The translations under genes were made by a program, and so were the position numbers. This document shows, piece after piece, positions 1 through 29,581 of a DNA stretch of 29,581 bases. The notes under the pieces are model-generated. The model saw only the letters and a list, made by a program, of their open reading frames with translations. It was not told the DNA's origin and made no database searches. Origin of the DNA: a virus; IMG/VR virus record IMGVR_UViG_3300030102_004070, positions 1-29,581 of that record; one strand, written 5' to 3'. How positions within the stretch are numbered: the stretch's first letter is position 1; each line of letters starts with the position of its first letter.

Positions 1-55
1 TCATATCAATGAAGCCATCGACCTGCTCGTGGCAACCAAGACACGCAAGCCCTCC
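1..55. repeat. Left terminal overlap, identical to 27853-27907
   Basis: Bases 1-55 match 27853-27907 exactly and the match ends at base 56 (a versus c). Together with the second identity (1600-1669 and 29512-29581) this shows that both window ends cover the same locus. A 55-base exact overlap is a common k-mer length in short-read assemblers, so an assembly-graph branch point is likely. Confidence 0.95.
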
Positions 56-151
56 ATGTGGTGGGTGAAGTCGTTTGACGCTGTGCTGGCCGTTGCTTAC
101 CTCGGGGCGTTTGTGTGGCTCATCTACAAAATGGTGGCATGGCTAACGTAA
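2..151 (+). CDS. Small single-pass membrane protein, allele A (5'-truncated by window start)
   Basis: The first codons are missing because the window begins inside the gene; the intact counterpart is at 27839-28000, which supplies five more N-terminal residues. About 49 residues are visible: a polar stretch, a basic patch (TKTRKP), then one hydrophobic segment (VLAVAYLGAFVWLIYKMV) reaching almost to the C-terminus. It overlaps the start of the tape-measure-like gene by 13 bases, so the two are probably translationally coupled. The function is unknown. Position directly in front of the tape-measure-like gene suggests a tail or membrane-contact role, which is inference only. The first 18 codons are identical at DNA level to the other allele and the rest differs. 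Confidence 0.7.
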   Translation, partial: HINEAIDLLVATKTRKPSMWWVKSFDAVLAVAYLGAFVWLIYKMVAWLT

Positions 152-1722
152 CAAAGCAACAAATCATCCTTGAGTTTGACGCGGAAACGGGTCAACTCAC
201 TCAACAGCTCTCGCAAGTTGACAAAGGGGTCGAGAAGGTTGGCGACAGCACAAGCCTTTTAACCACTCAAATCGACAAAATGACGGGCGGCGCGGTGTCT
301 GGATTCAAGAACGCCGTCGCCGGGACCAAGTCGTTCATCAAAGGGCTCAAGCTAACCAAGGCCGCCATCATTGGAACGGGTATTGGTGCGCTTGTCATTG
401 CGGTGTTGGGTCTTGTCAAGGCATTCACACGCTCAGAGGAGGGTGCCCGCAAGTTTGCCCGCGCGTTTGAAAGCGTTAAAACCGTCACGAACGTCATCCT
501 TGACCGGTTGGGTATGTTGGGCAAAGCCGTCGTCCAGTTGTTCGAGGGTGACTTTGCTGGGGCCGCCAAGACGGCGACCGCCGCGGTGTCAGGTATCAAC
601 GACGAAATCCGTGAGGAAATTGCCTTGTTCGACGAGCTTATCAAACGCGAGCAAGACCTTGAGGACGCACGCATCAAGCAAATCGTGGCAACGGCACAAA
701 CACGCGCCGAAATCAAAGAGCTCAACCTTGTGGCCGAGGACACAACTAAGAGCCTTGAGGAACGCGAAGCGGCGGCCGCCCGTGCAGGCGAGTTGGAGCG
801 TGCTTTGTTTGAGGAACGCAAGCGGTTGGCCGAGGAGGAGCTCGCCATCGCAAAGGCACGACTTGAAAACACGGCCAGCACAACCGAAGACCGCCAACGT
901 GTCGCCGAGTTGGAGGCCAACATCTTCAGCCTCGCCCAAGAGTCGCTTGAACTGCAAACGACGCTCAACAACAAGCTGAACATCATCCGGGCCGAGGGGC
1001 TACGCATCCAACAAGAGGAGTACGCGCTACAACTGGAACGCCTTGAGAAGACCAACGAAGCCCTTCAAGCCGAGGTGGTTTTGGTCGATGAAGTGAACAA
1101 TGAACTCGAACGCGGGTTGATGATGCGCAAGGACGCGGAGACAGTTGCCACGGGCATTGTCGTCAGCGAGGCCGAAAAGCGCAAGAAAGCACGCCGCGAC
1201 GAGTTCGAAAACACCGTCGACTTATTGGAAGACGAGGGTGTCGTTCGTTTGCAGTTAGCACAAGCCAGTTTCGCGGCCCTCAGCGCACTCAACCAAGCGT
1301 TCTCGGGTGAAGGTGAGCAGGAAGCTCGAAAGGCGTTTAAACGCAACAAGGCGCTCTCCCTTGCGACGGCCATCGCACAAACGGCTCAAGGTATCATCAC
1401 ACAGCTCGCTTCGCCGAAAGACGTCGTGACAGGTAGCAACTTCATCAAGGCCGCCATCGTTGCGGCTACTGGCGCGGCTCAAGTGGCAAACATCTCAAAA
1501 ACCAAATACGAGTCCGCCGGGCAGGGCAACCTGTCAACAAGCATTCCGAGACCCGGCGAAACGGCGGGCGCCTTTGGGGGTGCTCCGCAACTGGACCTCG
1601 GGTTCTTGGGTGAAGGCGCTGGGCAAAGCGGCCCCATTCAAGCGTTCGTTATCGCGCAAAACGTAAGCAACGCACAACAAGCAAACCAACAGGTCCAAGA
1701 CCAAGCAACACTCGGAGGATGA
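139..1722 (+). CDS. Tape-measure-like coiled-coil tail protein, allele A
   Basis: The product has 527 residues from the ATG at 139, which aligns with the start of the second allele at 27991; an upstream in-frame ATG at 115 lies inside the preceding gene and is not shared. The N-terminus (MANVTKQQIILEF) is followed by one hydrophobic segment at about 75-94, a long charged heptad-rich helical region (about 150-380), and an Ala/Gly-rich C-terminus ending near LDLGFLGEGAGQSG and QAFVIAQNVS. This layout is typical of short tape-measure proteins, which set tail length and help DNA cross the membrane. It is preceded by a tiny membrane protein and its stop overlaps the next start (ATGA). An internal virion protein is an alternative. 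Allele B at 27991 is clearly homologous at both ends but differs in the middle. Confidence 0.7.
   Translation: MANVTKQQIILEFDAETGQLTQQLSQVDKGVEKVGDSTSLLTTQIDKMTGGAVSGFKNAVAGTKSFIKGLKLTKAAIIGTGIGALVIAVLGLVKAFTRSEEGARKFARAFESVKTVTNVILDRLGMLGKAVVQLFEGDFAGAAKTATAAVSGINDEIREEIALFDELIKREQDLEDARIKQIVATAQTRAEIKELNLVAEDTTKSLEEREAAAARAGELERALFEERKRLAEEELAIAKARLENTASTTEDRQRVAELEANIFSLAQESLELQTTLNNKLNIIRAEGLRIQQEEYALQLERLEKTNEALQAEVVLVDEVNNELERGLMMRKDAETVATGIVVSEAEKRKKARRDEFENTVDLLEDEGVVRLQLAQASFAALSALNQAFSGEGEQEARKAFKRNKALSLATAIAQTAQGIITQLASPKDVVTGSNFIKAAIVAATGAAQVANISKTKYESAGQGNLSTSIPRPGETAGAFGGAPQLDLGFLGEGAGQSGPIQAFVIAQNVSNAQQANQQVQDQATLGG
1600..1669. repeat. Right terminal overlap, identical to 29512-29581
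   Basis: The last 70 bases of the window (29512-29581) are identical to 1600-1669 and the window stops inside this identity. The preceding base differs (c at 1599, t at 29511). It encodes the conserved C-terminal part of both tape-measure alleles. Confidence 0.95.
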
Positions 1723-3236
1723 AAATTGTGGAACTAATTATCGACGAGGAAGCCGAGGTGTTCGGCATCGAAGCCATCTCGCTCGTAGACCGTCCAGCCA
1801 TCGAGCTGGACTTCGTGGCCTTGAAAGACCAAAAGGTCACTTTTGCCGAGGTGGACAACGACAAGCGCATCCTCATGGGGCCGGCTCTCGTCCCGGATAA
1901 GCCCATCTACCGCAAGAACGCCGAGGGCGAGTTCTACGTGTACTTCTCAAAGGACACCGTGCGCCGTGCGGCCGAGCTCTACCTTCAACAAGGCCGCCAA
2001 ACGGCCCACACCTTGGAGCACGAGCACGCCATCAACGGCCTCACCGTAGTCGAGTCGTGGCTGGTGGAGGACAAAGACAAGGACAAGTCGGCCATGTATG
2101 ACCTCGACGTGCCCGTAGGTACGTGGATGGTGGCCGTCAAAGTGGAGAACGAGGCCATTTGGCAAGATTGGGTCAAAGAGGGCAAAGTGAAGGGCTTCTC
2201 GATTGAGGGCTACTTCGCCGACAAGATGCAAAAGCAAGAGGAGGAGACGGCGATGGGCTACGACGTCGTCGACGCGGTGTTGAGCGTCTTGGAACTTGAG
2301 ACGTATTCCGATTACCCGGACGCCGTGGTGAACAACGCCAAGCGCGGCATCGAGCTAAACGAGAAGGAAGGGAACAAGTGCGCCACGCAGACGGGCAAGG
2401 TTCGCGCTCAACAGCTCGCCAAGCGCCAACCCTTGAGCCGTGAAACGGTGAAACGCATGGCCTCCTATTTAGCGCGTGCGGAGGTGTACTACGACAACGG
2501 CGACCCGAGCGAATGCGGGTACATTTCGTACCTATTGTGGGGTGGCAAAGCGGGCAAGCGGTGGGCCGACGCTAAGGTGCGCGAGTTTGAGACGCTGTCA
2601 GAGCTTGAGAAGGTCGCGGTTCAAATCATGGCCGAGACATTCTTGGAAAGCAAAGTTGTCGACGAAAACACGGCTATCATTGACGACCGTTTGGCCTATG
2701 CGACGAGAGAGGCGGCAGAAAAGGCCGCAGAAGACATCGGGTGCGAAGGGCACCACACTCACGAGTTTGAAGGCAAGACGTGGTATATGCCGTGCAAACA
2801 ACACAACCTCGCAGACGTAGGGCCACGCGGCGGGGTGCGCCGTAGCCGTAAGGCACCAAAGTCCGGCACACCTAACCGCAACCCCAATAGGGGAAGCGAC
2901 AAGAACAAACCCGGGGCGGCCGCCAGCGAGGGCAAGGTCAAAGTTCCCAAGTCCGTGGAGGAAGCATTGCAAAAAAAGAGCGACGACTTCAACGAACGCT
3001 ACAAAGAAAAACTCGGCTACGGGGTGAGTGTTGCAAAGCTCAAGGTCGTCTACCAACGCGGGGTTGGTGCTTATCAAACGTCACACAGCCCCCGGGTAAC
3101 GAGCCAACAGCAATGGGCGTACGCGAGGGTCAACGCCTTCCTCTACCTCGTAAAAAATGGCAGGCCGCAAAACGCCAAATACACCGGCGACAACGACCTC
3201 TTGCCCAAGGGACACCCTAAGTCAGAAAAAAAATGA
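1719..3236 (+). CDS. XkdF-like prohead protease with extra C-terminal domains
   Basis: This 505-residue protein starts with an XkdF-type putative phage serine protease domain (about 1-170): ISLVDRPAI near the N-terminus, a His-rich LEHEHAI (His101/103) and GFSIEGYF (Ser161) as candidate catalytic elements. Such proteases mature proheads. Further along are a second conserved-looking domain (about 205-290, KRGIELNEKEGNKCATQ to YLLWGGKAGKRW), a Cys/His-rich patch (Cys342, His345, His346, His348, Cys359, His362) that could bind metal, a basic linker (about 370-395), and a C-terminal domain with TSHSPRVTS and WAYARVNAFLYLVKNGRP. It overlaps the tape-measure gene by 4 bases and lies directly upstream of scaffold and capsid genes. 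The domain fusion is notable, and the functions of the last three parts are unknown to me. Confidence 0.8.
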   Translation: MKIVELIIDEEAEVFGIEAISLVDRPAIELDFVALKDQKVTFAEVDNDKRILMGPALVPDKPIYRKNAEGEFYVYFSKDTVRRAAELYLQQGRQTAHTLEHEHAINGLTVVESWLVEDKDKDKSAMYDLDVPVGTWMVAVKVENEAIWQDWVKEGKVKGFSIEGYFADKMQKQEEETAMGYDVVDAVLSVLELETYSDYPDAVVNNAKRGIELNEKEGNKCATQTGKVRAQQLAKRQPLSRETVKRMASYLARAEVYYDNGDPSECGYISYLLWGGKAGKRWADAKVREFETLSELEKVAVQIMAETFLESKVVDENTAIIDDRLAYATREAAEKAAEDIGCEGHHTHEFEGKTWYMPCKQHNLADVGPRGGVRRSRKAPKSGTPNRNPNRGSDKNKPGAAASEGKVKVPKSVEEALQKKSDDFNERYKEKLGYGVSVAKLKVVYQRGVGAYQTSHSPRVTSQQQWAYARVNAFLYLVKNGRPQNAKYTGDNDLLPKGHPKSEKK

Positions 3237-12110: not shown

Positions 12111-12286
12111 GCGACAAGAACCTCGCGCAAGGTTGGATAGATGGAGGGGGCTTCGGCTCCCTCCCTCCCAACTCGCACAAGAAAAGCAGTAAATACCACA
12201 GCGGACCGCAGAGGACGTACTACCACGGCGTCAAGACGTGGGACCCTTGGAAGAAGCGGTGGTGGGTGATACAAACGTACCCATGA
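12107..12286 (+). CDS. Small Gly/aromatic-rich protein, 59 residues
   Basis: The ORF is coupled by ATGA overlaps at both ends (12107-12110 and 12283-12286). The sequence has a Gly/Pro-rich part (GWIDGGGFGSLPPNSHKK) and a basic, Trp/Tyr-rich C-terminus (YYHGVKTWDPWKKRWWVIQ). A GC-rich hairpin with a TTCG loop (12143-12164) falls inside it. No family recognised; coding is supported mainly by the couplings. Confidence 0.5.
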   Translation: MSDKNLAQGWIDGGGFGSLPPNSHKKSSKYHSGPQRTYYHGVKTWDPWKKRWWVIQTYP

Positions 12287-13245
12287 CACACGGCTCACTT
12301 TTTTCAGGAATTGGAGGGTTTGACCTGGCCGCCGAGTGGATGGGTTGGTCAAACGTCTTCAACTGCGAGTGGGAAGACTTCCCGCGCCGCGTACTAAAAC
12401 ACCATTTTCCCCATGCAACACAACACAAAGACATCCGCGACTTCAACGCGACAGCTTACGCTGGACGAGTTGATACGCTCAGCGGAGGGTTCCCATGCCA
12501 ACCCTACTCGACCGCAGGAAAGCGAAAAGGAAAAGACGACGAGCGCCACTTGTGGCCCGAGATGTTGCGCGTTGTTCGAGAATGCGCCCCGCGCTACGTC
12601 GTGGGCGAAAACGTTCGCGGGCTTGTTAGTTGGAATGGAGGGTTGGTCTTCGAGGAGGTGTGTACTGACTTGGAATCTCTTGGGTACGCCGTTCAACCGT
12701 TCCTACTTCCGGCTTGCGGCGTCGGCGCACCCCACAGACGGGACCGAGTGTGGTTTGTTGCTTACTCCGACCAGCACGCAAATCTGCGAAGACCCGGAGA
12801 AGACACAAGCACGGACGAAGGACAAGGGCTACAACAAGGGGTCGAAATACAACAGCCTTGTGAGCCAAGTCGTGTACGGCTTGCTTCCGACTCCGGTAGC
12901 CTCCGACCACGTACCAAAATCAAAGATGAGGCCAAGCCGAGAGGCAACGAACAGAAAGACGGGCTACCTCTCGGAAATGACCGGAATGCTTCCAACTCCG
13001 ACAACCGGAGCAGACCACAAGACGCAGTACGCACAAGGCGGCAAAAGCCTGCGGTGCGCCCTTGGTCAGAGTTCCCAACTTTCTCCCCTGTTTGTGGAGG
13101 AGATGATGGGCTTCCCAAAGAACTGGACGGCATTACCTTTTCAAAGTGGCGACGAGAAAGCATAAAAGCCTACGGGAACGCAATCGTCCCTCAAGTAGCT
13201 TTGCAAATCTTCAAAGCAATTCAAGCGCATGAAAATGCAACGTGA
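12283..13245 (+). CDS. dcm: C5-cytosine DNA methyltransferase
   Basis: The 320-residue protein transfers a methyl group from S-adenosylmethionine to cytosine. Motifs appear in order: I (GSLFSGIGGFDLAA, residues 3-16), IV with catalytic Cys72 (GGFPCQPYS), VI (ENVRGL, from 109), VIII (APHRRDRVWF, His151) and X (YGNAIVPQVALQIF, from 297). Between VIII and X is a Ser/Asn/Arg-rich variable stretch and a conserved-looking PTFSPVCGGDDGLPKELDGI segment. The start is the ATG at 12283 (ATGA overlap with the previous stop), rather than the in-frame 12238. No restriction enzyme is nearby, so it probably shields phage DNA from host restriction. A second ORF overlaps its body in the +1 frame. Confidence 0.88.
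   Translation: MTHGSLFSGIGGFDLAAEWMGWSNVFNCEWEDFPRRVLKHHFPHATQHKDIRDFNATAYAGRVDTLSGGFPCQPYSTAGKRKGKDDERHLWPEMLRVVRECAPRYVVGENVRGLVSWNGGLVFEEVCTDLESLGYAVQPFLLPACGVGAPHRRDRVWFVAYSDQHANLRRPGEDTSTDEGQGLQQGVEIQQPCEPSRVRLASDSGSLRPRTKIKDEAKPRGNEQKDGLPLGNDRNASNSDNRSRPQDAVRTRRQKPAVRPWSEFPTFSPVCGGDDGLPKELDGITFSKWRRESIKAYGNAIVPQVALQIFKAIQAHENAT
12413..13165 (+). CDS. Overlapping +1-frame ORF with methyltransferase-associated PTPxASD-type sequence
   Basis: This 250-codon ORF lies wholly inside the cytosine methyltransferase gene in the +1 frame, opening just after a TAA at 12395. Its translation is not random: WSSRRCVLTWNLLGTPFNRS, LLLTPT, LLPTPVASDH, GMLPTPTTGADHK, and near the end LSPLFVEEMMGFPKNWT. 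I recognise this series (PTPxASD repeats and a final MMGFPxxWT) as a domain annotated in phage proteins next to or fused with cytosine methyltransferases. The same bases encode VCGGDDGLPKELDG in the main frame. An inner ATG at 12635 (MEGWSS) is an alternative start. It may be a true overlapping gene, a frameshift product, or a conserved shadow. Confidence 0.45.
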   Translation: MQHNTKTSATSTRQLTLDELIRSAEGSHANPTRPQESEKEKTTSATCGPRCCALFENAPRATSWAKTFAGLLVGMEGWSSRRCVLTWNLLGTPFNRSYFRLAASAHPTDGTECGLLLTPTSTQICEDPEKTQARTKDKGYNKGSKYNSLVSQVVYGLLPTPVASDHVPKSKMRPSREATNRKTGYLSEMTGMLPTPTTGADHKTQYAQGGKSLRCALGQSSQLSPLFVEEMMGFPKNWTALPFQSGDEKA

Positions 13246-15975: not shown

Positions 15976-16226
15976 CCAACAAACCCCTCACCTTTCGCAA
16001 GGCCAAGCGCCTCCTCGGTCAGTGCGACGACTGGGTTCTCTTTACAGCCAAAAACAACGGCGACGACACGTGCAACCTTGAGTGTGCCACAATGGCTCCC
16101 ACGTCGTGGGCTCTCTTGATTGACTTCGCAACCGCCGACGAAAACTTCTACAATGCCCTCGAAACAATCCTCAACACGGCCCGTGACATACGCGAAAACG
16201 GCGAATCTCCGGACCAACCCGAATAA
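15972..16226 (+). CDS. Hypothetical early protein, 84 residues
   Basis: The 84-residue product starts with an ATGA overlap to the DnaA-like gene. It contains FRKAKRLLGQCDDWVLFTAK, LECATMAPTSWALLIDFA and an acidic C-terminus. No family recognised. It overlaps the ParB-methyltransferase gene by about 44 bases if the GTG at 16183 is that gene's start. Confidence 0.55.
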   Translation: MTNKPLTFRKAKRLLGQCDDWVLFTAKNNGDDTCNLECATMAPTSWALLIDFATADENFYNALETILNTARDIRENGESPDQPE

Positions 16227-17367
16227 CCCCCGGGCCATACGCAAGGACCAACTCAACAAGCTCGTCAAGAGTTTGCAAGAGTTCCCGGAGATGCTTGAGG
16301 CTCGGCCCATCGTTATCGACAAAGACGGGACCGTGCTCGGGGGTAATATGCGCCTCAAGGCGGCCCAACTTGCCGGCCTCGATGAGGTGCCCGTCTACGT
16401 CCGTGAATGGGACGAAGGCAAGGACGGCCAGTTCATCATCAAGGACAACGTCAGCTTCGGCGAGTGGGACCAAGATATGCTCGGCAACGAATGGGAGCCC
16501 GAACAGCTCGACGAGTGGGGCTTGAACATCGACTGGGACGAACCCGAGGAGACGGAAGGACTCACCGACGCGGACGACGTCCCCGAAGTACCGGAGGAGG
16601 CCACAACGAAACCCGGCGACCTTTGGGTCTTGGGTGAGCACCGCCTCTTGTGTGGCGACTCGACCAAAGCCGAGGACGTGGAACGTCTCATGGACGGCAA
16701 CAAGGCCGACATGGCCTTCACCGACCCGCCGTATAACGTAGAATATACCGGGGGAATTCAGTACAAAAACGGCAAAAAAGTCACCAACAACCGAGAGATG
16801 ATTGCGAACGACGACCGCGATTTGTACCCGGAGGTTGTGGGCATACTTTGCGACTACGTGGACGGTCCAAGTTACGTGTGGTTTGCGGGGACAAAAGCCT
16901 CGACCCTTTATGCGACCGCCGAAGAATTGGCGGACATTCACAGCCTTATTATTTGGGTGAAGAACGGCGGATATGGCGCCCTCGGGGCAAGCTACAAGCA
17001 AAAACATGAGCCGTGTCTGTTCATTAAGACCAAAGGCTCGACCCTACGATTTGTCGGGCCCACGACAGAGAATACGGTATGGGAGATTGACAAGGACGGC
17101 GTAAACCGGTTACACCCAACACAAAAGCCCGTGGAACTGGCCGAACGCGCACTCAAAAATCACGACGCCAAAAACGTCCTTGACCTCTTCCTCGGTTCAG
17201 GTTCTACGCTTATAGCCGCAGAGAAAACCAACCGCATCTGCTACGGCATGGAACTGGACCCTAAATATTGTGACGTCATCGTCAAGCGATGGGAGGAGTT
17301 CACCGGTAAAAAAGCACACCTACAAAATGACGAGGAGGAGTTTGAAATTTTAACGCAAGCGAACTAA
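16183..17367 (+). CDS. ParB-like domain fused to N6-adenine DNA methyltransferase
   Basis: The product has 394 residues from a GTG at 16183; ATGs at 16120 and 16153 would extend it with low-complexity residues inside the previous gene. The N-terminal ParB/Spo0J-like domain shows LRTNPNNPRAIRKDQLNKLV, RPIVIDKDGTVLGGNMRLKA, FIIKDNVSFGEWD. A linker then leads to a beta-class methyltransferase: DPPYNVEY (motif IV, Asp181), a target-recognition part, and DLFLGSGSTLIAA (motif I, from 334). ParB-methylase fusions are known in phages, and may mark origins, protect DNA or control packaging. It directly precedes the terminase genes. Confidence 0.85.
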   Translation: MTYAKTANLRTNPNNPRAIRKDQLNKLVKSLQEFPEMLEARPIVIDKDGTVLGGNMRLKAAQLAGLDEVPVYVREWDEGKDGQFIIKDNVSFGEWDQDMLGNEWEPEQLDEWGLNIDWDEPEETEGLTDADDVPEVPEEATTKPGDLWVLGEHRLLCGDSTKAEDVERLMDGNKADMAFTDPPYNVEYTGGIQYKNGKKVTNNREMIANDDRDLYPEVVGILCDYVDGPSYVWFAGTKASTLYATAEELADIHSLIIWVKNGGYGALGASYKQKHEPCLFIKTKGSTLRFVGPTTENTVWEIDKDGVNRLHPTQKPVELAERALKNHDAKNVLDLFLGSGSTLIAAEKTNRICYGMELDPKYCDVIVKRWEEFTGKKAHLQNDEEEFEILTQAN

Positions 17368-20050: not shown

Positions 20051-20502
20051 TAACCTACACCAACATCGTGAACCGTTTCGAGGCATTCGTCGCGGCCAAT
20101 CCGTTCGTGTCGACCTTCTCTTTTGGCTCGCCATCCGACGTCGACTTGGACAAGCTCGAAACCTATCCCGTCCTTCACCTCGTGTACACGGGTGCCAGCT
20201 ACGAAGGAAGCTCCAAGACCTACTCGTTCGAGGTGTACATCTTGGACAACCCGCCCAACGACGAGTCCAAGGTGGACTTTCAAAAGGGCGCCATTACAAA
20301 CGCCGAACAAATCGCCGAGGACATCTTGGCCGACATGGAGCGTGGTGGGGAGGTGTTCACCTTCGCCCATCGCTTTGACGTGGCAAGCGCCTCGACTGTC
20401 CCCCTTGAGGAGGAAGGGAGCAACGTGCTGTCCGGCGTCCTCTTGAACCTTTCCGTGACCGTTGGTTACGAACACAACTCTTGCATTTCACCACTCACAT
20501 GA
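20047..20502 (+). CDS. Tail terminator-like protein
   Basis: This 151-residue protein follows the chaperone-like gene. Its pattern (RFEAFVAANPFVSTFSFGSPSDVDL, cut here to show a short N-terminal helix and then SFGSPSDVD, KLETYPVLHLVY, YSFEVYILDNPP, AITNAEQIAEDILADME) resembles Bacteroidota phage tail proteins that may cap the tail tube. It is beta-rich with one helix in the middle. The stop overlaps the fibre gene start. A neck protein is an alternative. Confidence 0.5.
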   Translation: MITYTNIVNRFEAFVAANPFVSTFSFGSPSDVDLDKLETYPVLHLVYTGASYEGSSKTYSFEVYILDNPPNDESKVDFQKGAITNAEQIAEDILADMERGGEVFTFAHRFDVASASTVPLEEEGSNVLSGVLLNLSVTVGYEHNSCISPLT

Positions 20503-22682
20503 AAAACTGGAAACTCCGCTACACCTTCGACAGCAACGAGGACTCGGACTACGTCGAAGTCAACGGGCACCTTGCCAACCTTTCAAACGGCGACTTCACC
20601 GTGGACATCATTCCCTTCGGCAATCAATTTGCGGCCGCTTTGCGTACTGGGGCCACCGACACCTTCGGCCCTGCCTCAAACCAAGTCCCCGGCATTTGCA
20701 ACGGCACCTTCACCCACACCGGGTCCGGCTCTGCGACCGTGTCGGCGACTACGCTGACCGGGGGAGGCTCGGGCGCTACATTCACCTACACATTCATCGC
20801 TGACGGAACGCTGTCAACCATTGTAGCGGCATCGGGCGGAAGCGGCTACCTTGTGGGCGACAAGCTCCGCATCACCACAAGTGCCTCGCATGGCTCACAG
20901 GTCATTGAGTTCCGTTTGGTCGATGGGTCTAACGCGACAGAGTTCACCGTCCAAGCCAACCACGAAAACCAAACGCCCTTTCCATTTGCGGTGCATCGCG
21001 CTCGGGTTGGGCAAGCGACGGAGAAGACCCTTTACGTCTTCGACTACCGGAGCTCGCAGGTCTTCCCAAAGCCACAGGACAAGCTCCTCGACAAGTTCCC
21101 GAACCCGGCGGCTGCCTACGGCTTGCGCCTCTTGCGTTCGGCCTACCTCGGCCCTGCCATCCGCGTGCGTCGTGAGTCACCCGGAACCCCCGAGATGGAC
21201 ATCTACTTTGACGCACAAGGCAATCTCGATACCAAGACGTTGCTCGACTTTGCTGGCACGTCCAACGTGAGGTGCAAAATTTGGTACGACCAATCGGGCA
21301 ACGGGAATGACGCCGAGCAAAGCAGCAACTCGGCACAACCTCGCATTGTCGCCAGTGGAGTGCTTCACACGGTCAACGGCAAGCCCGCCCTCGACTTCGA
21401 CGGGAGCGACGACAAGTTCTCGCTGAACCATGACGACCTGTACGGGCAAGACCGATTGGATGCTTACTTCCACATCGAGAGCGACGACAACAAGTACCTC
21501 ATGTTTTCGTCGTCGACGACAGGGGGCGAACACGGCTTTGTAATTACGGACGGAGACACAAGCACATCAGTGTCCGCGAACTACAACAGAGCCTCAACAA
21601 ACGTGTACGTCAACGGCGTTGACATGAACTTTGTCAGCGGAACCACGACGCGTGACGACTTGCACACGGCCATCATCACAAACGGCGCCGACCATTCTAC
21701 GGGGGCAATCGTGGTGCATGAGGACGCTCTCACGACAAATTGGACCAACTTCAAGGTTTCGGCCTATGGTTCATTTGCTTTTTCCGGCAAGCTGACCGAG
21801 ATGGTGCTTTACAACACCGACCAGTCGGCCAACCGCGAGAACATCGAGAAGGACATGGCCCTGCACTCGGGAGCCTACGAAGTGGAGGACGCGCCGTTGC
21901 TTGACGCCTACGGGGGTGCCCATGCGGCCTACTCCCTCCGCAAGCTCAACAGCGACTACACGGGGTCGGCGATGCGCGTAAGGGCCGCCCGCGCTGGCAA
22001 CCCTGAGCAAGACATTGGTTTTGATTCAGACGGCAACTTAGATACGGCCGCGTTGTTGACATTTGCGGGTTCAAACTTTTGCCATGTCAAAACATGGTAC
22101 GACCAAAGTGGTAATGGCAACGACGTCACGCAAACGGCGACAGGTAAACAGCCCATTATAGCGTTTTCAGAGGCCGTGCAAACTGTAGACGGCAGGCCCG
22201 CCGTTCGTTTTGAAGCAAGCACATTCGACGCCCTACCCTTCGACAGCACGGGCCTCGACATTGGCAACCTTTCGTCGTTCATTGTTATGAAGGCAAGCGG
22301 CACGACCGGGCTCCAATTCCCACTCGTGGTTAGTGCCGGAGACCCTACGCGTTTCTATCCTCCCGTCATTTCCAACGGCAACTTTACATACACCTACGGC
22401 AGCTCCACAGCCGTCGGGACTTCCACAGCCAACACGAACAACAACCTTCACTCCATGATTGCGGGAGCCACACAGGGCGACGCTGAAGCGTTCCTGAATG
22501 GCTCAAGCGTGGGCACCAAGGCGTTGGCGTCCGGGGTTGGTTCATTTACGGACGGAATTGGTGGCGTAAACGGCGGTAACTTTTTCAACGGCTTCATCCA
22601 AGAAATTGTCGTCTACTCCAGCGACCAAAGCGAGCGCCGCCTTGGCATCGAACGCAACATTTCAAACCACTACGACTTATGA
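20499..22682 (+). CDS. Receptor-binding fibre with tandem LamG/arabinofuranosidase-like modules
   Basis: The product has 727 residues from the ATG at 20499 (ATGA overlap); an in-frame TTG at 20481 is not needed. Residues about 1-190 form an anchor-like beta domain (NQVPGI, GSGATFTY, SHGSQVIEFRLVDGSN) shared with the gene at 23250. Two homologous modules follow, about 200-440 and 474-727, each with AAYxLRxL, FDxxGNLDT, KxWYDQSGNGND (Tyr263, Tyr534 contexts) and a V-x-GxPAxxF segment. These match concanavalin-like modules related to alpha-L-arabinofuranosidase B catalytic regions. It probably binds or degrades a host surface glycan. Catalysis is not proven by visible residues. Confidence 0.75.
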   Translation: MKNWKLRYTFDSNEDSDYVEVNGHLANLSNGDFTVDIIPFGNQFAAALRTGATDTFGPASNQVPGICNGTFTHTGSGSATVSATTLTGGGSGATFTYTFIADGTLSTIVAASGGSGYLVGDKLRITTSASHGSQVIEFRLVDGSNATEFTVQANHENQTPFPFAVHRARVGQATEKTLYVFDYRSSQVFPKPQDKLLDKFPNPAAAYGLRLLRSAYLGPAIRVRRESPGTPEMDIYFDAQGNLDTKTLLDFAGTSNVRCKIWYDQSGNGNDAEQSSNSAQPRIVASGVLHTVNGKPALDFDGSDDKFSLNHDDLYGQDRLDAYFHIESDDNKYLMFSSSTTGGEHGFVITDGDTSTSVSANYNRASTNVYVNGVDMNFVSGTTTRDDLHTAIITNGADHSTGAIVVHEDALTTNWTNFKVSAYGSFAFSGKLTEMVLYNTDQSANRENIEKDMALHSGAYEVEDAPLLDAYGGAHAAYSLRKLNSDYTGSAMRVRAARAGNPEQDIGFDSDGNLDTAALLTFAGSNFCHVKTWYDQSGNGNDVTQTATGKQPIIAFSEAVQTVDGRPAVRFEASTFDALPFDSTGLDIGNLSSFIVMKASGTTGLQFPLVVSAGDPTRFYPPVISNGNFTYTYGSSTAVGTSTANTNNNLHSMIAGATQGDAEAFLNGSSVGTKALASGVGSFTDGIGGVNGGNFFNGFIQEIVVYSSDQSERRLGIERNISNHYDL

Positions 22683-23082: not shown

Positions 23083-23253
23083 ATGGACTTTATTCTCAAC
23101 AACTGGGCCGAGTTGGCCCTCGCCATCCTCGGAGCCCTTGGCACCTACACCGCCCTCACTGAATCCACCAAGGACGACAAGGTGGTGGACGTACTGAAAC
23201 GAATTGTGAACGCCATCGTCTTGGGCCGTTCGCGCAAAGCTGACAAAAAGTGA
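23083..23253 (+). CDS. Holin-like small membrane protein
   Basis: The 56-residue product has one membrane segment at the N-terminus (FILNNWAELALAILGALGTY) and a charged C-terminal part (STKDDKVVDVLKRIV, then RSRKADKK). The pattern INNW...A-x(2)-AI then T-x-(S/K)-DDKVxD is common in small holin-like proteins of Bacteroidota phages. It lies inside the tail module, far from the endolysin at 8670. The stop overlaps the next gene (GTGA). Confidence 0.6.
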   Translation: MDFILNNWAELALAILGALGTYTALTESTKDDKVVDVLKRIVNAIVLGRSRKADKK

Positions 23254-23795
23254 AGGACTACGACTTGTTTGGCCGCACGTCGGCCGTAGCGTCTGACGGT
23301 TTCGTAACCGTGAACGGCTACATCTACAACGCGACGGGCGTCGACTTTAACATCGAAGTTGTGCCCTACGGCACCGAATACGCCGCACCTTTGGTGACAA
23401 GTTCGGCTCCTAACCAAGTGCCTGGCATTACAAGCGGGACTCCGGATGCAATTACAGCAAACCAAACCGTCACCGGTCGCACGGCAACGAGCATCACCGG
23501 TGAAGGGAGCGGAGCGACGTTTACCTATGTCAGCAACGGCGACGGAGCTATCACAAGCATTGTCGCAGACGCGGGTGGTACGGGTTACTTGGAGAACGAC
23601 CACTTGAGCATCACGACAACGTCGGCTCACGGCTCGCAAACGCTGTCCTTCCGACTTGTGACAGGAAGCAACGAGGCCGAGGTAGCTATGACGTTTGTAC
23701 ACGACCAAAAGGGGCCGCTTCCTTTTGCGGTGCGCGAATACAAGAACACCACAACTGACGCTCGCCAAGTATTTTTCCTGCGTGAACGCTCGTGA
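23250..23795 (+). CDS. Fibre-anchor paralog without LamG modules
   Basis: The 181-residue product begins with a GTG overlapping the previous stop. It matches the N-terminal domain of the 20499 fibre: NIEVVPYGTEYAAPL against VDIIPFGNQFAAAL, then NQVPGI, GSGATFTY, G(S/T)GYLxxDxLxITT, SAHGSQTLSFRLVTGSN, and PLPFAVRE near the end. It stops where the fibre continues into LamG-like modules. It may form a hetero-oligomeric base or be a relic of a duplication. It is not obviously broken. Confidence 0.65.
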   Translation: MKDYDLFGRTSAVASDGFVTVNGYIYNATGVDFNIEVVPYGTEYAAPLVTSSAPNQVPGITSGTPDAITANQTVTGRTATSITGEGSGATFTYVSNGDGAITSIVADAGGTGYLENDHLSITTTSAHGSQTLSFRLVTGSNEAEVAMTFVHDQKGPLPFAVREYKNTTTDARQVFFLRERS

Positions 23796-24340: not shown

Positions 24341-25600
24341 ATGGCCGTTGCCTTTACATCGGAGCCGGTTGACGACATCAACGTCAGCAACCAGCACCTC
24401 ATATACACCATATACGACTCCGCTTCAACCCCGGACCGTTACGTCGTGGATGTACACGAGACCTTCAACTTCACTCAGCAGGTGAGCACGAGCACGCTAA
24501 TTGCCAAGGTTTACATCACGCCAAACGCTCAAAACCGAGGTGTGTTCGACCTCTCTGACATTGTAGAAAACCGTCTCATACAGCCCACAACCATTACGGG
24601 TCAAGGCGGCCCGAAATTTGTGCATAACACGGGCTCAACTGAAGCCCCAGCGGTTGACGACCCGTCGGTCGCAAAATACACGCTTCAGGCGAGGCGATTG
24701 GACAACGGCGTTGAAAGTGCAGTGGGGGAGACGCTGGTGAAGTACCTCCTGAATGGGGCGTGGCAAATCAAGGACGGCAAGCACCCCAGTTTTTCAGAGT
24801 TCTACTGCGACGCAGCCTCTAACACCGCAAAGGCGTGGCTCACCAACCTGCCAAACAACTCGCAACTCATCGAGCGACACATGGCCGACGAGGACGAAGG
24901 CCGTGCTCAAATTATGCAACACAGCCTCATGGGGGTGACTTGTTTTTTGAATAGGGTTCGATACGAATTGCGAAACTCGTCGGGCACCTTGCTGGCAAGC
25001 AAGAACTTGTCGGTGAACCTGTCGGTTTTTTTGCCGCAAAACGTCCGAAACGTACCAATGGGGCCGGTCAACCTTGAGGCATATTTTGGAAGCGACTGGG
25101 ACGAAACTTGGTCATATTGCGACCTCATCCCACAACAAACTGGGGTGCAACTTGGTGCGACGCTACGCATACACCGCGACTGCCGGCCCATCAAGCACGC
25201 ACCCGTGCAACTTGCTTGGGCTAACAGCGTAGGGGGGTGGGACATGGTGCGGTTCGACGCACGCGCACCCAAGACCATCCAAAAGAACGAAAAGCGGTTT
25301 CGCAAAGACCCCCTTGACTGGCAGGGCACCACTACCTCGTGGCAACCTTGGGACCGTGGCACTACCACCTTCCACAACGAAGGGCGCAAACGCTTCACCT
25401 TAACCCACGACGAGTTCACAACAGACGAGCGGGCTCTTTTGGAGTTTTGCATGAGGTCCAGGCTTGTGTACTACCGATACGGGACCGACGCGTGGGCCCC
25501 CTGCGTGGTTGACACCAACTCCCTTCTCATCGAGCCGGCAGGGTCTAAAATGTACCGGGTGTCTCTCGTTATTGAAGACGCAAACCCGGTGCGATGCTGA
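24341..25600 (+). CDS. Large tail protein (distal tail or baseplate-like)
   Basis: The 419-residue beta-rich protein (NQHLIYTIYDSASTPDRYVV, TLIAKVYITPNAQNRGVFDL, DSVAKYTLQA-like segments; C-terminal FCMRSRLVYYRYGTDAW and VDTNSLLIEPAG) resembles tail proteins found between gp10-like genes and tape-measure genes in Bacteroidota prophages. It starts 3 bases after the previous stop and overlaps the next gene by 7 bases. A distal tail role is inferred from order and composition. Confidence 0.6.
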   Translation: MAVAFTSEPVDDINVSNQHLIYTIYDSASTPDRYVVDVHETFNFTQQVSTSTLIAKVYITPNAQNRGVFDLSDIVENRLIQPTTITGQGGPKFVHNTGSTEAPAVDDPSVAKYTLQARRLDNGVESAVGETLVKYLLNGAWQIKDGKHPSFSEFYCDAASNTAKAWLTNLPNNSQLIERHMADEDEGRAQIMQHSLMGVTCFLNRVRYELRNSSGTLLASKNLSVNLSVFLPQNVRNVPMGPVNLEAYFGSDWDETWSYCDLIPQQTGVQLGATLRIHRDCRPIKHAPVQLAWANSVGGWDMVRFDARAPKTIQKNEKRFRKDPLDWQGTTTSWQPWDRGTTTFHNEGRKRFTLTHDEFTTDERALLEFCMRSRLVYYRYGTDAWAPCVVDTNSLLIEPAGSKMYRVSLVIEDANPVRC

Positions 25601-27834
25601 GACTGAACGTTTCCGACGTTGACCTTGACCTCTATCAAGACGAGGCGGTCAACCTTACCATTCAGTTTTCGGACCTTGAGGGCATCAACAGCCCGGTGGG
25701 TTCGTTCTCGCAGACGTTCCGCGTGCCGGGCACGCAAAAAAACATGGACGTCTTTGGCCCCATACAAACAAGCGAACCCGCCAACGTCAACCTCAAGACC
25801 AAGAAAGCGGCAGAGCTGTTTTCGGGTTCGGTGTCCATCCTTCGGGGGTTCGTGCAAGTCAAGGCCGTATATCTTCAGAAGCAACACTACGCCGACATCG
25901 AGCTCGTGTTCTTTGCGGGTGCGGTAGACCTCAAAACGGCCATCGGTGACGGGATGCTTTCCGACTTGGACTTTAGCGCTAACAACCATGACCTCACGTA
26001 CAACTTCGTAACCGGTTCCTGGTCGGGTGTTGGTATTGGCCCTGAGATAACCTACGGCCTCATCGACAAGGGTTTTAACTGGGACTTTGACAACAATCGG
26101 CCACCGTGGACAGCCGCCGACGGGTTATTTCTTGGGGAGTTGACGCCCATGTTTCAAGCCAAGTTCGTGTTGGACAAAATCATGTCCACTGCGGGATACA
26201 CCTTCGACTCCACATTTCTCTCAACAACTGGGGCTCAATCATTTGCCAAGATTTACCTCCCGGGATTGACAGGCACGCCCACACCTGCCTCGAGCGAAGC
26301 CGAAAATACCAACGCCCGAGTTGGATTGACGGCTGACTTCAGCGGGTCGGCGCTGACAACGCTGGACCTCGAAGACGACGCCACGGGAGGCGTTGACGAG
26401 GGCGAAAACTTCAACAACACGACCAACAAGTTCACGGCGCCCTACACTGGTTTCTTTCGTGCCAACTTGACGTATTCCTACGACCAAGGTTCAAACACGG
26501 AGCACGTCACTATTCAGGTGGTGAAAAACGGCTCGACGGTTTTGTTTGAGGCGGCAAACCTTGACAACGTGGCCAACAATCGCTCAACCGGATTCCAAGA
26601 GTTCGTGCTTGTGAGTGGCGACACTGTAGAGGTCAAAGGCCGGGCTCATGCCAACGGCGTGGTCATTAAAGGCAACGACTCAACCGTCAGTGGTGTGCGA
26701 ACTTCCCTTGAAATTATAGGCGGTTTCCCGTTCTCGGGGTTTGAGGTAGACGTGGCCCGCAATATGCCGGAGCTCAAACAAATCGACTTCGTGACAGGCT
26801 TGCAAAAAATGTTCAATCTCGTGTTCGTCCCTGACAAGAACAGGGAAAATCACCTCCTTATCGAGCCGTATGTTGACTACATGGCCGCCGGCACTGAGAA
26901 GGCGTGGAATGACCTCATCGACTACGACCACGACATCACCCTCAAGCCCACAACCGACCTCCAGTGCAAGAGATACGAGTGGACCCACAAGCCGGGCAAG
27001 GACTTTTTGAGCGAAGCCATCGACAGCAGTTTGGGACGCGTGTATGGGCGCTTTCAAGTCACCGACGCCGACAACGACTTTGCTACGGGCGACAAGCGCA
27101 TCGAGACGCCGTTTGCGCCGTACATCACCTCGGTTATCCCCGGCTCTCAATTCCCTATTCATCGAAGCCTTAAACAGGACGGGACAGGCATCGACAATCC
27201 GCCGCCCATGTTGGCCTACTACCACGACCTCGTGAACGACTTTGGGACATGGTATTTACGCAACGACAGCGGGGTCGAACAGACGCTCACGACCTTCCCG
27301 AGCTTCTCAAACTACTCTGTTGACCTGCCCGTGCTGACATCGTTGGACCTGAACTACGGCATGGAGGCGGCCTTTATCCCAATGGAATGCAACCCCCGCG
27401 ACACGTTGTACTTCAAATACTGGGCGCAATACGTGACCGAGTTGTACAGCGAGGAGGCCCGCATAATGACGCTCCACGTCAAGCTAGACCGCGTCGAACT
27501 GGCCGACTTTGAGTTCTCGGACAAGATTTGGATGCGTGGGGCGCGGTGGCGTGTCATCAAAATGACGTACGACGCCAACGTCGAGGGGTTGGTTAAGGTC
27601 GAATGCATCAAGGTGCTGTCCGACGTTGCTATATGCGCCGACACCCCGACATCGCTATCGACTAAGTTCAACTACATTTTATTCAACGGCACGACGTCGG
27701 CCTCGCCTGACTACGGGTCACAAGAGTGTTGTGAGTTGTACGGGTACCGGTGGGTCAAGAACGACCAAGCCATCGGCGGCGTCACCCCGGTAAACTTGTG
27801 CAAACCACTCAACGAACAGGCTCAACCCTCGTAA
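25594..27834 (+). CDS. Large tail protein with inserted C1q/TNF-like jellyroll
   Basis: The 746-residue protein has an N-terminal part (RLNVSDVDLDLYQDEAVNLT, GSFSQTFRVPGTQKN, GFVQVKAVYLQK) that I recognise in Bacteroidota phage tail proteins. Residues about 240-376 look like an inserted beta-sandwich of C1q type (FTAPYTGFFRANLTYSYD, VTIQVVKNGSTV, SGDTVEVKGRAHANG). The second half (IDYDHDITLKPTTDLQCKRY, then EWTHKPGKDFL) fits a baseplate or tail-tip body. C1q-like domains in phages usually mediate binding. It ends just before the small membrane gene at 27839. Confidence 0.65.
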   Translation: MLRLNVSDVDLDLYQDEAVNLTIQFSDLEGINSPVGSFSQTFRVPGTQKNMDVFGPIQTSEPANVNLKTKKAAELFSGSVSILRGFVQVKAVYLQKQHYADIELVFFAGAVDLKTAIGDGMLSDLDFSANNHDLTYNFVTGSWSGVGIGPEITYGLIDKGFNWDFDNNRPPWTAADGLFLGELTPMFQAKFVLDKIMSTAGYTFDSTFLSTTGAQSFAKIYLPGLTGTPTPASSEAENTNARVGLTADFSGSALTTLDLEDDATGGVDEGENFNNTTNKFTAPYTGFFRANLTYSYDQGSNTEHVTIQVVKNGSTVLFEAANLDNVANNRSTGFQEFVLVSGDTVEVKGRAHANGVVIKGNDSTVSGVRTSLEIIGGFPFSGFEVDVARNMPELKQIDFVTGLQKMFNLVFVPDKNRENHLLIEPYVDYMAAGTEKAWNDLIDYDHDITLKPTTDLQCKRYEWTHKPGKDFLSEAIDSSLGRVYGRFQVTDADNDFATGDKRIETPFAPYITSVIPGSQFPIHRSLKQDGTGIDNPPPMLAYYHDLVNDFGTWYLRNDSGVEQTLTTFPSFSNYSVDLPVLTSLDLNYGMEAAFIPMECNPRDTLYFKYWAQYVTELYSEEARIMTLHVKLDRVELADFEFSDKIWMRGARWRVIKMTYDANVEGLVKVECIKVLSDVAICADTPTSLSTKFNYILFNGTTSASPDYGSQECCELYGYRWVKNDQAIGGVTPVNLCKPLNEQAQPS

Positions 27835-27838
27835 GCAA

Positions 27839-28000
27839 ATGGAGAACCCGCGTCATATCAATGAAGCCATCGACCTGCTCGTGGCAACCAAGACACGCAA
27901 GCCCTCCCTTTGGTGGGTGAAGCCTTTGGACGTCGTGTTGACCGTTGCTTACCTCGGGGCGTTTGGTTGGCTCATCCTTAACGTGGTCAAATGGCTGTAA
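27839..28000 (+). CDS. Small single-pass membrane protein, allele B (complete)
   Basis: The complete 53-residue form of the gene truncated at the window start. It begins MENPRHINEAIDLLVATKTRK and has one membrane segment (VLTVAYLGAFGWLILNVV). The first 55 bases of the window are identical to 27853-27907 here; the rest differs moderately between alleles. It overlaps the tape-measure start by 10 bases. Role unknown. Confidence 0.7.
   Translation: MENPRHINEAIDLLVATKTRKPSLWWVKPLDVVLTVAYLGAFGWLILNVVKWL
27853..27907. repeat. Second copy of the left terminal overlap (equals 1-55)
   Basis: Exact match to 1-55. It gives an apparent circle length of 27852 bases through allele A. Confidence 0.95.
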
Positions 28001-29581
28001 CCAAGCAACAAGTTATCCTCGAATTCGACGCCGACACGGGCGAGTTGCTCAAAGCAACCAAGGCCGTTGAGGATAGCGTCGAGGACGTAGGCAAAGCGGC
28101 GCAAAAAAGCGGCGACGACTTGTCCGACATGGGCAAGACGGGGTCGAGCGCGTTCAAGGGCATCGGCACGGCTCTCAAGGCCACCGGGATTGGTTTGCTT
28201 GTTGGTTTGTTGGCAAAACTGGCAATGAAATTTGCCGAGAACAAAAAGGTCGCCGACACCTTGGCCGTAGCCAGCGCGGCCTTGGGCACCGTGTTCAACG
28301 ACATCGTGGACCTCGGCATCAGGCTGGGCGAAACGGTGGCGAGTGCCTTCACGGACCCCAAACAGGCCGTTATCGACCTGAAAGATGCCATCGTTGACAA
28401 CATTACAAACCGCATCACGGGGTTGCTCAACCTCTTGCCGTCGTTAGCCGAGGCCATCAATCTCGTGTTCAAGGGCCAATTCAAGGAAGCGGGCAAGGTT
28501 GCCGCAGATGCTACCGCACAGGTCGTTCTTGGCGTGACCGACTTTACCGACAAGGTCAGCGAAGCGGCGGACGCTGTGACCGACTACGCCAGCGCCGTGG
28601 CGAACAGCGTGGACGAAAGCACACAACTCGAACGACAACTCCAAAAGCTACGGGACGCGGAGCGCGACCTTGCGGTGGAGACGGCCCGAAGCCGTGCAGA
28701 GGTGGAGGAACTGAAGCGCCAACGCGACGACCAAACATTGAGCATTGAGCAACGCCTCGAAGCGTCGCAAAAAGCGGCGGCCATCGACAAGGCCATTGCC
28801 GACGAGAACGTCCGCATCCAGGAACAAAAGGCCGCCCTACTTCGACAGGAAATTGAGTTGCAAGGCGAGACGGAAGAACGCCTCAACGCCTTGGCAGAGG
28901 CCGAAATCGCGGCGGCCGATGCACGCCAACAAAGCGCGACCGTACAAACGGAACTCCAAAACAGCATCTTCGCCCTCAACGAGGAAATCAAGGCACAAGA
29001 AGAGGAGGCACAACAAGCCGCCGACGACGCTTTGAAGGCCGAGGAGGAGCGTCTGGCCGAGGAACAAAAGCTCAAAGACGAAGCGGCCAAGAAAGACAAA
29101 GAGCGACGCGACAAAGACCTTGCCGATGAACGGGCCTTGCTTGAACAAAAGCGGGCCATGACGTTCGCCGCATTGTCTGCCTTGGCCGACTTGAGCAACG
29201 CCTTCGCCAAAAACGACGAGGAGGGTGCCCGACGTGCGTTCAAACGCAACAAAGCCCTCTCCCTTGCGTCGGCTGTACTTAACACCGGCCAAGCCATTAC
29301 CGACGCGCTCAAGGGTCCGGAGCTTTTCCCGGGTGGTCGTTTCATCGAAGCGGCAATCACAGGCGCCGCCGGCCTTGCTCAAATCCAAAACATACGCAAG
29401 ACGCAATTTCAAGGAAGTAACCCACCGCCACCGGCTACCGAAGACCGGGGACCGGCGGGAGGTTTTGCAACCGGAGCCGTCAACGCACCCGGAGCGCCTA
29501 CCCTCGACCTTGGGTTCTTGGGTGAAGGCGCTGGGCAAAGCGGCCCCATTCAAGCGTTCGTTATCGCGCAAAACGTAAGCA
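27991..29581 (+). CDS. Tape-measure-like coiled-coil tail protein, allele B (3'-truncated)
   Basis: The window ends inside this gene after 530 codons; by comparison with allele A about 17 residues are missing, giving about 547 in total, 20 more than allele A. The N-terminus (MAVTKQQVILEFDADTGEL) and the C-terminal quarter (EGARRAFKRNKALSLAS, then LDLGFLGEGAGQSG) are close to allele A; the middle is unlike in sequence but keeps the same build: a hydrophobic segment (ATGIGLLVGLLAKLAMKF), a helical region and a long charged coiled coil. It is the same gene on a circular map. Confidence 0.7.
   Translation, partial: MAVTKQQVILEFDADTGELLKATKAVEDSVEDVGKAAQKSGDDLSDMGKTGSSAFKGIGTALKATGIGLLVGLLAKLAMKFAENKKVADTLAVASAALGTVFNDIVDLGIRLGETVASAFTDPKQAVIDLKDAIVDNITNRITGLLNLLPSLAEAINLVFKGQFKEAGKVAADATAQVVLGVTDFTDKVSEAADAVTDYASAVANSVDESTQLERQLQKLRDAERDLAVETARSRAEVEELKRQRDDQTLSIEQRLEASQKAAAIDKAIADENVRIQEQKAALLRQEIELQGETEERLNALAEAEIAAADARQQSATVQTELQNSIFALNEEIKAQEEEAQQAADDALKAEEERLAEEQKLKDEAAKKDKERRDKDLADERALLEQKRAMTFAALSALADLSNAFAKNDEEGARRAFKRNKALSLASAVLNTGQAITDALKGPELFPGGRFIEAAITGAAGLAQIQNIRKTQFQGSNPPPPATEDRGPAGGFATGAVNAPGAPTLDLGFLGEGAGQSGPIQAFVIAQNVS
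29512..29581. repeat. Second copy of the right terminal overlap (equals 1600-1669)
   Basis: The last 70 bases are identical to 1600-1669. This gives an apparent circle length of 27912 bases through allele B, 60 bases longer than through allele A. Confidence 0.95.

Follow-up and report, generated by a model that had tools for sequence, protein, structure and literature searches.

IMG/VR record IMGVR_UViG_3300030102_004070 raises a simple question: why should one viral contig begin and end with different versions of what appears to be the same gene? The window analysed here is the entire record, 29,581 bp, which is classed as linear; because it is the whole entry, the ends of the record are the ends of the contig. 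We consider it very probable that the record represents one circularly mapping, siphophage-like genome of ~27.85-27.91 kb, that its tape-measure gene was present in the sample in two or more versions, on a background treated as one by the assembler, and that a single path was written out as allele A, backbone and allele B.

Two diverged copies between exact anchors

Two exact repeats, 55 bases long on the left and 70 bases long on the right, frame the two copies of the locus (Table 1). The left match breaks off with a mismatch at base 56, whereas the right match reaches the final base of the record. About 3e-25 chance repeats of 55 bases are expected in the window, and chance is excluded as the origin of the anchors. 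Next to the left anchor, similarity between the copies is 84% by blastn over 1-191 / 27853-28040 and fades with distance from the anchor, while on the right it rises abruptly at the anchor (97.5% over 1591-1669 / 29503-29581). Beyond these end regions and a 56-base stretch at 80% (1315-1370 / 29218-29273), blastn of copy A against copy B returned no other convincing repeat. The middles of the two copies are nearly unalignable at the DNA level, and the encoded proteins are 39% identical. The original prediction had described exact repeats at the window ends with diverged sequence between them, and the comparison confirms that description.

Table 1. Features at the tape-measure locus, in window coordinates
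Feature	Position	Strand	Details
Left anchor, copy A side	1..55		Exact match to 27853-27907, within small membrane-protein ORF
Tape-measure gene, allele A	139..1722	+	527 aa from ATG 139; mechanical ORF starts at GTG 115
Right anchor, copy A side	1600..1669		Exact 70-base match to 29512-29581
Downstream flank, XkdF-type head maturation protease	1719..3236	+	PF14550, E 7.6e-15; overlaps tape-measure stop (ATGA)
Upstream flank, 746-aa protein in virion gene block	25594..27834	+	Several alleles among relatives
Small ORF, 53 aa, one likely membrane helix	27839..28000	+	Bridges left anchor; conserved in relatives
Left anchor, copy B side	27853..27907		Exact match to 1-55
Tape-measure gene, allele B	27991..29581	+	Runs off record end; reading on at 1670 gives 547 aa
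Right anchor, copy B side	29512..29581		Final bases of record

For allele A, the ATG is more likely to be the start than the upstream GTG. Allele B is completed in frame by 1670-1719 and has its stop in common with allele A. In the close relatives examined, the 53-aa ORF directly precedes the tape-measure gene, and downstream of the protease lie more head genes, including that for the portal protein. Change at four-fold sites is low at the anchors, yet 99 of 993 control windows over shared genes were equally low, and we rejected unusual conservation of the anchor DNA as exceptional. RNA structure at the right anchor gave a z of -0.18, and no sigma-70-like promoter was found near the left anchor.

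Relation to known tape-measure proteins

Judged by sequence, the locus is related to known tape-measure families. Allele B matches phrog_20660 (tail length tape measure) with an E of 7.5e-10, and the direct match of allele A is weak (phrog_1506, E 0.0035). The matches of 17 aligned relatives fall into seven PHROG families annotated as tail length tape measure protein, three of which occur in 10 members. Predicted models of A and B consist mostly of long helices, at a low confidence (mean pLDDT only 56-57), and a search of solved structures gave a single weak match, to FtbJ (E 0.007). A hydrophobic stretch of 19 residues begins at residue 61-75 in all five alleles examined. With a hydrophobic segment, conserved ends and tentatively predicted helices, these proteins may resemble the tape measures of lambda (gpH), HK97 and TP901-1. 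They differ in measuring only about 520-550 aa in close relatives and in that a Pfam search matched no family. Infection by TP901-1 depends on the termini and the first hydrophobic region of its tape measure, and protein length tracks tail length (PMC5099701).

A circular map

Relatives were gathered from IMG/VR by four protein queries, and exact-pattern scans of IMG/VR for the anchors yielded no contigs beyond those already collected. Related contigs run unbroken from the homologue of the upstream flank, via one tape-measure gene, into the homologue of the protease. Collinearity with the window extends past its ends in G002 (26,240 bp), G006 and G009, for instance: each leads from the homologue of 26.7-27.8 kb into that of 1.6-10 kb, with a single tape-measure gene on the way. 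Because of the exact anchor positions, the circle measures 27,852 bp with allele A and 27,912 bp with allele B. That the genome is circular or permuted, at about 27.85 kb (A) or 27.91 kb (B), had been proposed from the window alone, and contigs of relatives that cross its ends unbroken bear this out.

Exchange of the gene among relatives

If the two versions are alleles, the question becomes whether they move between genomes. Among independent contigs, pairs with 92-100% identical flanking proteins have tape-measure proteins that are 39-57% identical. Seven discordant pairs combine like flanks with an unlike tape measure, and eight are of the reverse kind. For example, L010 and L016 have flanking proteins that are 99% and 100% identical and tape measures that are 57% identical, and between L008 and L030 identity is 98% in the upstream protein and 39% in the tape measure. 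Conversely, the tape measures of L008 and L010 are 99% identical and their upstream proteins 67%. The upstream allele of the window itself accompanies a B-type gene in L008 (98% identity for the flank and 94% for the tape measure) and an A-type gene in L030 (98% and 67%, respectively). Tape-measure identity shows no significant correlation with that of the upstream protein (Mantel r 0.14, p 0.11) and a modest correlation with that of the protease (r 0.38, p 0.009), both figures being computed without L028, a mis-cut sequence. These comparisons indicate that the flanks and the tape measure differ in history and that exchange is natural in this phage group. The strain-level exchange originally suggested is thus recovered, in that tape-measure type and flank type are reassorted among independent contigs.

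Segment comparison points to combinations within the gene as well. In L021 an A-type first half is joined to a B-type C part, L014 and L016 combine a B-type C part with an N part of a third type, and L035 and L136 have the C part, though not the N part, in common. Over the 70-base right anchor, other B-type genes differ from window B by 24-26 bases. The 3' end of window B is A-like, unlike that of other B-type genes, so that window B itself looks like a recombinant allele. We propose that the tape-measure gene would be a cassette swapped by homologous recombination via conserved flanks. The left flank would be provided by the small upstream ORF and the gene start, and the right flank by the conserved 3' end and the start of the protease gene.

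How the record arose

The best reading of the record is a single passage round a circular map in which both arms of a strain-variant bubble were retained. A circular graph with one large bubble, followed along arm A, the backbone and arm B, yields exactly this layout. The path would start in allele A, pass once round the genome into allele B, and stop at both ends within sequence common to the two alleles; both contig ends do lie within sequence shared by A and B. We infer that A and B coexisted on the same background in this sample, and graph traversal would then have set the end positions of the record.

The anchor lengths bear on this path. A length of 55 is a common assembler k value, and the earlier suspicion that the 55-base anchor is an assembler k-mer is plausible for the left side (k=55). 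It does not carry over to the right side, where the anchor is 70 bases long, and one k does not account for both ends. The longer anchor would need an extra branch 15 bases further on, for example from a third allele. None of 18 other related records checked has both ends inside the tape-measure gene. We also considered contig ends as a sign of a variable gene and rejected the idea, as the end rate among 80 protease-bearing loci is not raised in the gene (0.098 per kb, versus 0.122-0.159 further upstream). Six related contigs (L024, L135, G021 and G024-G026) terminate within the tape-measure gene or close to where it ends.

Alternatively, A and B may derive from different co-occurring lineages, so that their backgrounds differ and the 27-kb backbone they share would be a consensus of merged strains; this is a sub-case of the bubble reading, with an exchange that predates the sample. 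Assemblers may collapse strains into a consensus (PMC11443906), and at the DNA level related contigs from other records show differences of roughly 8-20% from the window over much of the backbone. Counter to this, identity of the flanks is unbroken for 55 and 70 bases up to the point of divergence, and window B is already A-like at the 3' end, where B-type relatives carry their 24-26 mismatches. We regard a merger of lineages as a possible, though doubtful, origin of the record.

A true tandem pair, with two tape-measure genes placed consecutively in one genome and the contig cut between them, would agree with the finding that A and B are both open reading frames with intact ends. The relatives speak against it. 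One tape-measure gene, and in no case two, is present in 16 of 16 close relatives that span the upstream gene to the protease (L005-L010, L014, L016, L020, L021, L027-L030, L035 and L050). The spacing from the end of the upstream gene to the start of the protease fits one copy only: it is 1797 in the B-type L005, L006 and L008 (window B, 1800), and among A-type relatives 1734 in L027 and L028 and 1725 in L030 (window A, 1740). A single copy at A- or B-predicted spacing in all 16 argues strongly, though indirectly, against a tandem pair in the window. In addition, both record ends fall inside shared sequence, which would be rare for a random cut, and no sequence joining the end of B to the start of A is present. 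A tandem pair is therefore highly improbable, and the original preference for two alleles holds.

Least probable of all, to the point of being negligible, is programmed switching, in which one lineage flips alleles by an inversion or copying system: it would explain two alleles at one locus within one record, but self-comparison of the window found no inverted repeat or further copy, and no recombinase or reverse transcriptase occurred among the proteins searched, a subset of the ORFs.

Returning to the reading of one circular genome with two alleles, the record calls for correction: it is over-length by 1.67-1.73 kb, and it is called linear yet maps as a circle.

Tail length and DNA injection

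Why would a phage population keep several versions of this gene? Close relatives have tape measures of 518-547 aa at identities down to 35-39%, and in more distant relatives the protein is longer, reaching 740 aa. The steady 518-547 aa is compatible with protein length setting tail length. In TP901-1, removing 347 aa shortens the tail from 118 to 65 nm, or about 0.15 nm per residue (PMC5099701). On these figures, the 20-residue difference between A and B would amount to ~3 nm of tail. A length so steady beside a changing sequence makes tail length an unlikely target of selection, and the proposal that the locus is a tail-length cassette is disfavoured, given that length hardly differs between alleles of close relatives.

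Tape-measure proteins also have a part in the entry of DNA: a mutation in that of lambda makes ManYZ dispensable, and in one phage tape-measure mutations allow escape from an enhanced form of the SNIPE defence (PMC13190303). We favour, by inference, selection on DNA injection or on escape from defence over selection on tail length. Selection would act on DNA injection through an inner-membrane partner or an injection-sensing defence. More tentatively, and with considerable doubt, we suggest that separate N-terminal, middle and C-terminal modules may reassort via the conserved flanks at near-fixed total length. Such reassortment would vary the injection step (the inner-membrane partner or escape from injection-sensing defences) with tail length constant and several versions coexisting in one population.

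Host and other variable regions

The best isolate matches of the terminase are phages of gut Bacteroidales, at about 40% identity, and the tape-measure matches are mainly phages of marine Flavobacteriia. Taken together, these matches make a Bacteroidota host likely. The portal protein had no relative among the genome contigs searched.

Other regions of the genome may vary among relatives too. The protease gene has a second sharp break at 2636-3224, where most relatives match to about codon 306 and DNA similarity is then lost until ~3224; the C-terminal part of the protease looks like another exchanged cassette. Two DNA methyltransferase genes, one of C5 type (12238-13245) and one of N4/N6 type with a ParB-like N part (16120-17364), overlap stretches that lack a DNA match in the relatives compared, and their neighbours are well conserved. 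These stretches are possible variable anti-restriction cassettes. A large protein encoded at 20481-22682 partially matches the catalytic domain of an arabinofuranosidase (PF09206, 8.5e-12) and also matches a virion structural family. Its DNA is unmatched in G002 and matched in G001, G006 and G009, and its N part seems to resemble a portion of the protein encoded at 23250-23795.

Known systems and implications

Hypervariability of tape-measure genes in phage populations is already reported, and this locus is a new, unusually clear example. In honeybee gut phages, tape-measure genes are among those most often tied to variable islands in co-occurring phages (PMC13331135), a variability like that at this locus. 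Those metagenomic islands were read from coverage against assembled genomes, whereas here two full alleles stand in one contig and more are found across records. Tape-measure genes are also listed under positive selection in soil viruses (PMC10746233).

As in the modular mosaicism of tailed phages, homologous cassettes here reassort against near-identical flanks. In contrast to that pattern, breaks also fall inside the tape-measure gene, giving combinations of N and C parts, and the group is uncultivated. The layout likewise resembles strain-variant bubbles in de Bruijn graphs, with divergent alleles between shared anchors. Faced with strain variants, assemblers break at conserved stretches or form a consensus (PMC11443906). 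Here no such fragmentation has occurred: both arms are retained in one over-length contig of a circular map, and the anchors are of 55 and 70 bases, not of one k.

At this locus, related phages provide a clean series of natural tape-measure exchanges between near-identical flanks. A series of swaps in which length is kept and sequence is changed could help to separate the role of the tape measure as a ruler from its role in DNA injection.
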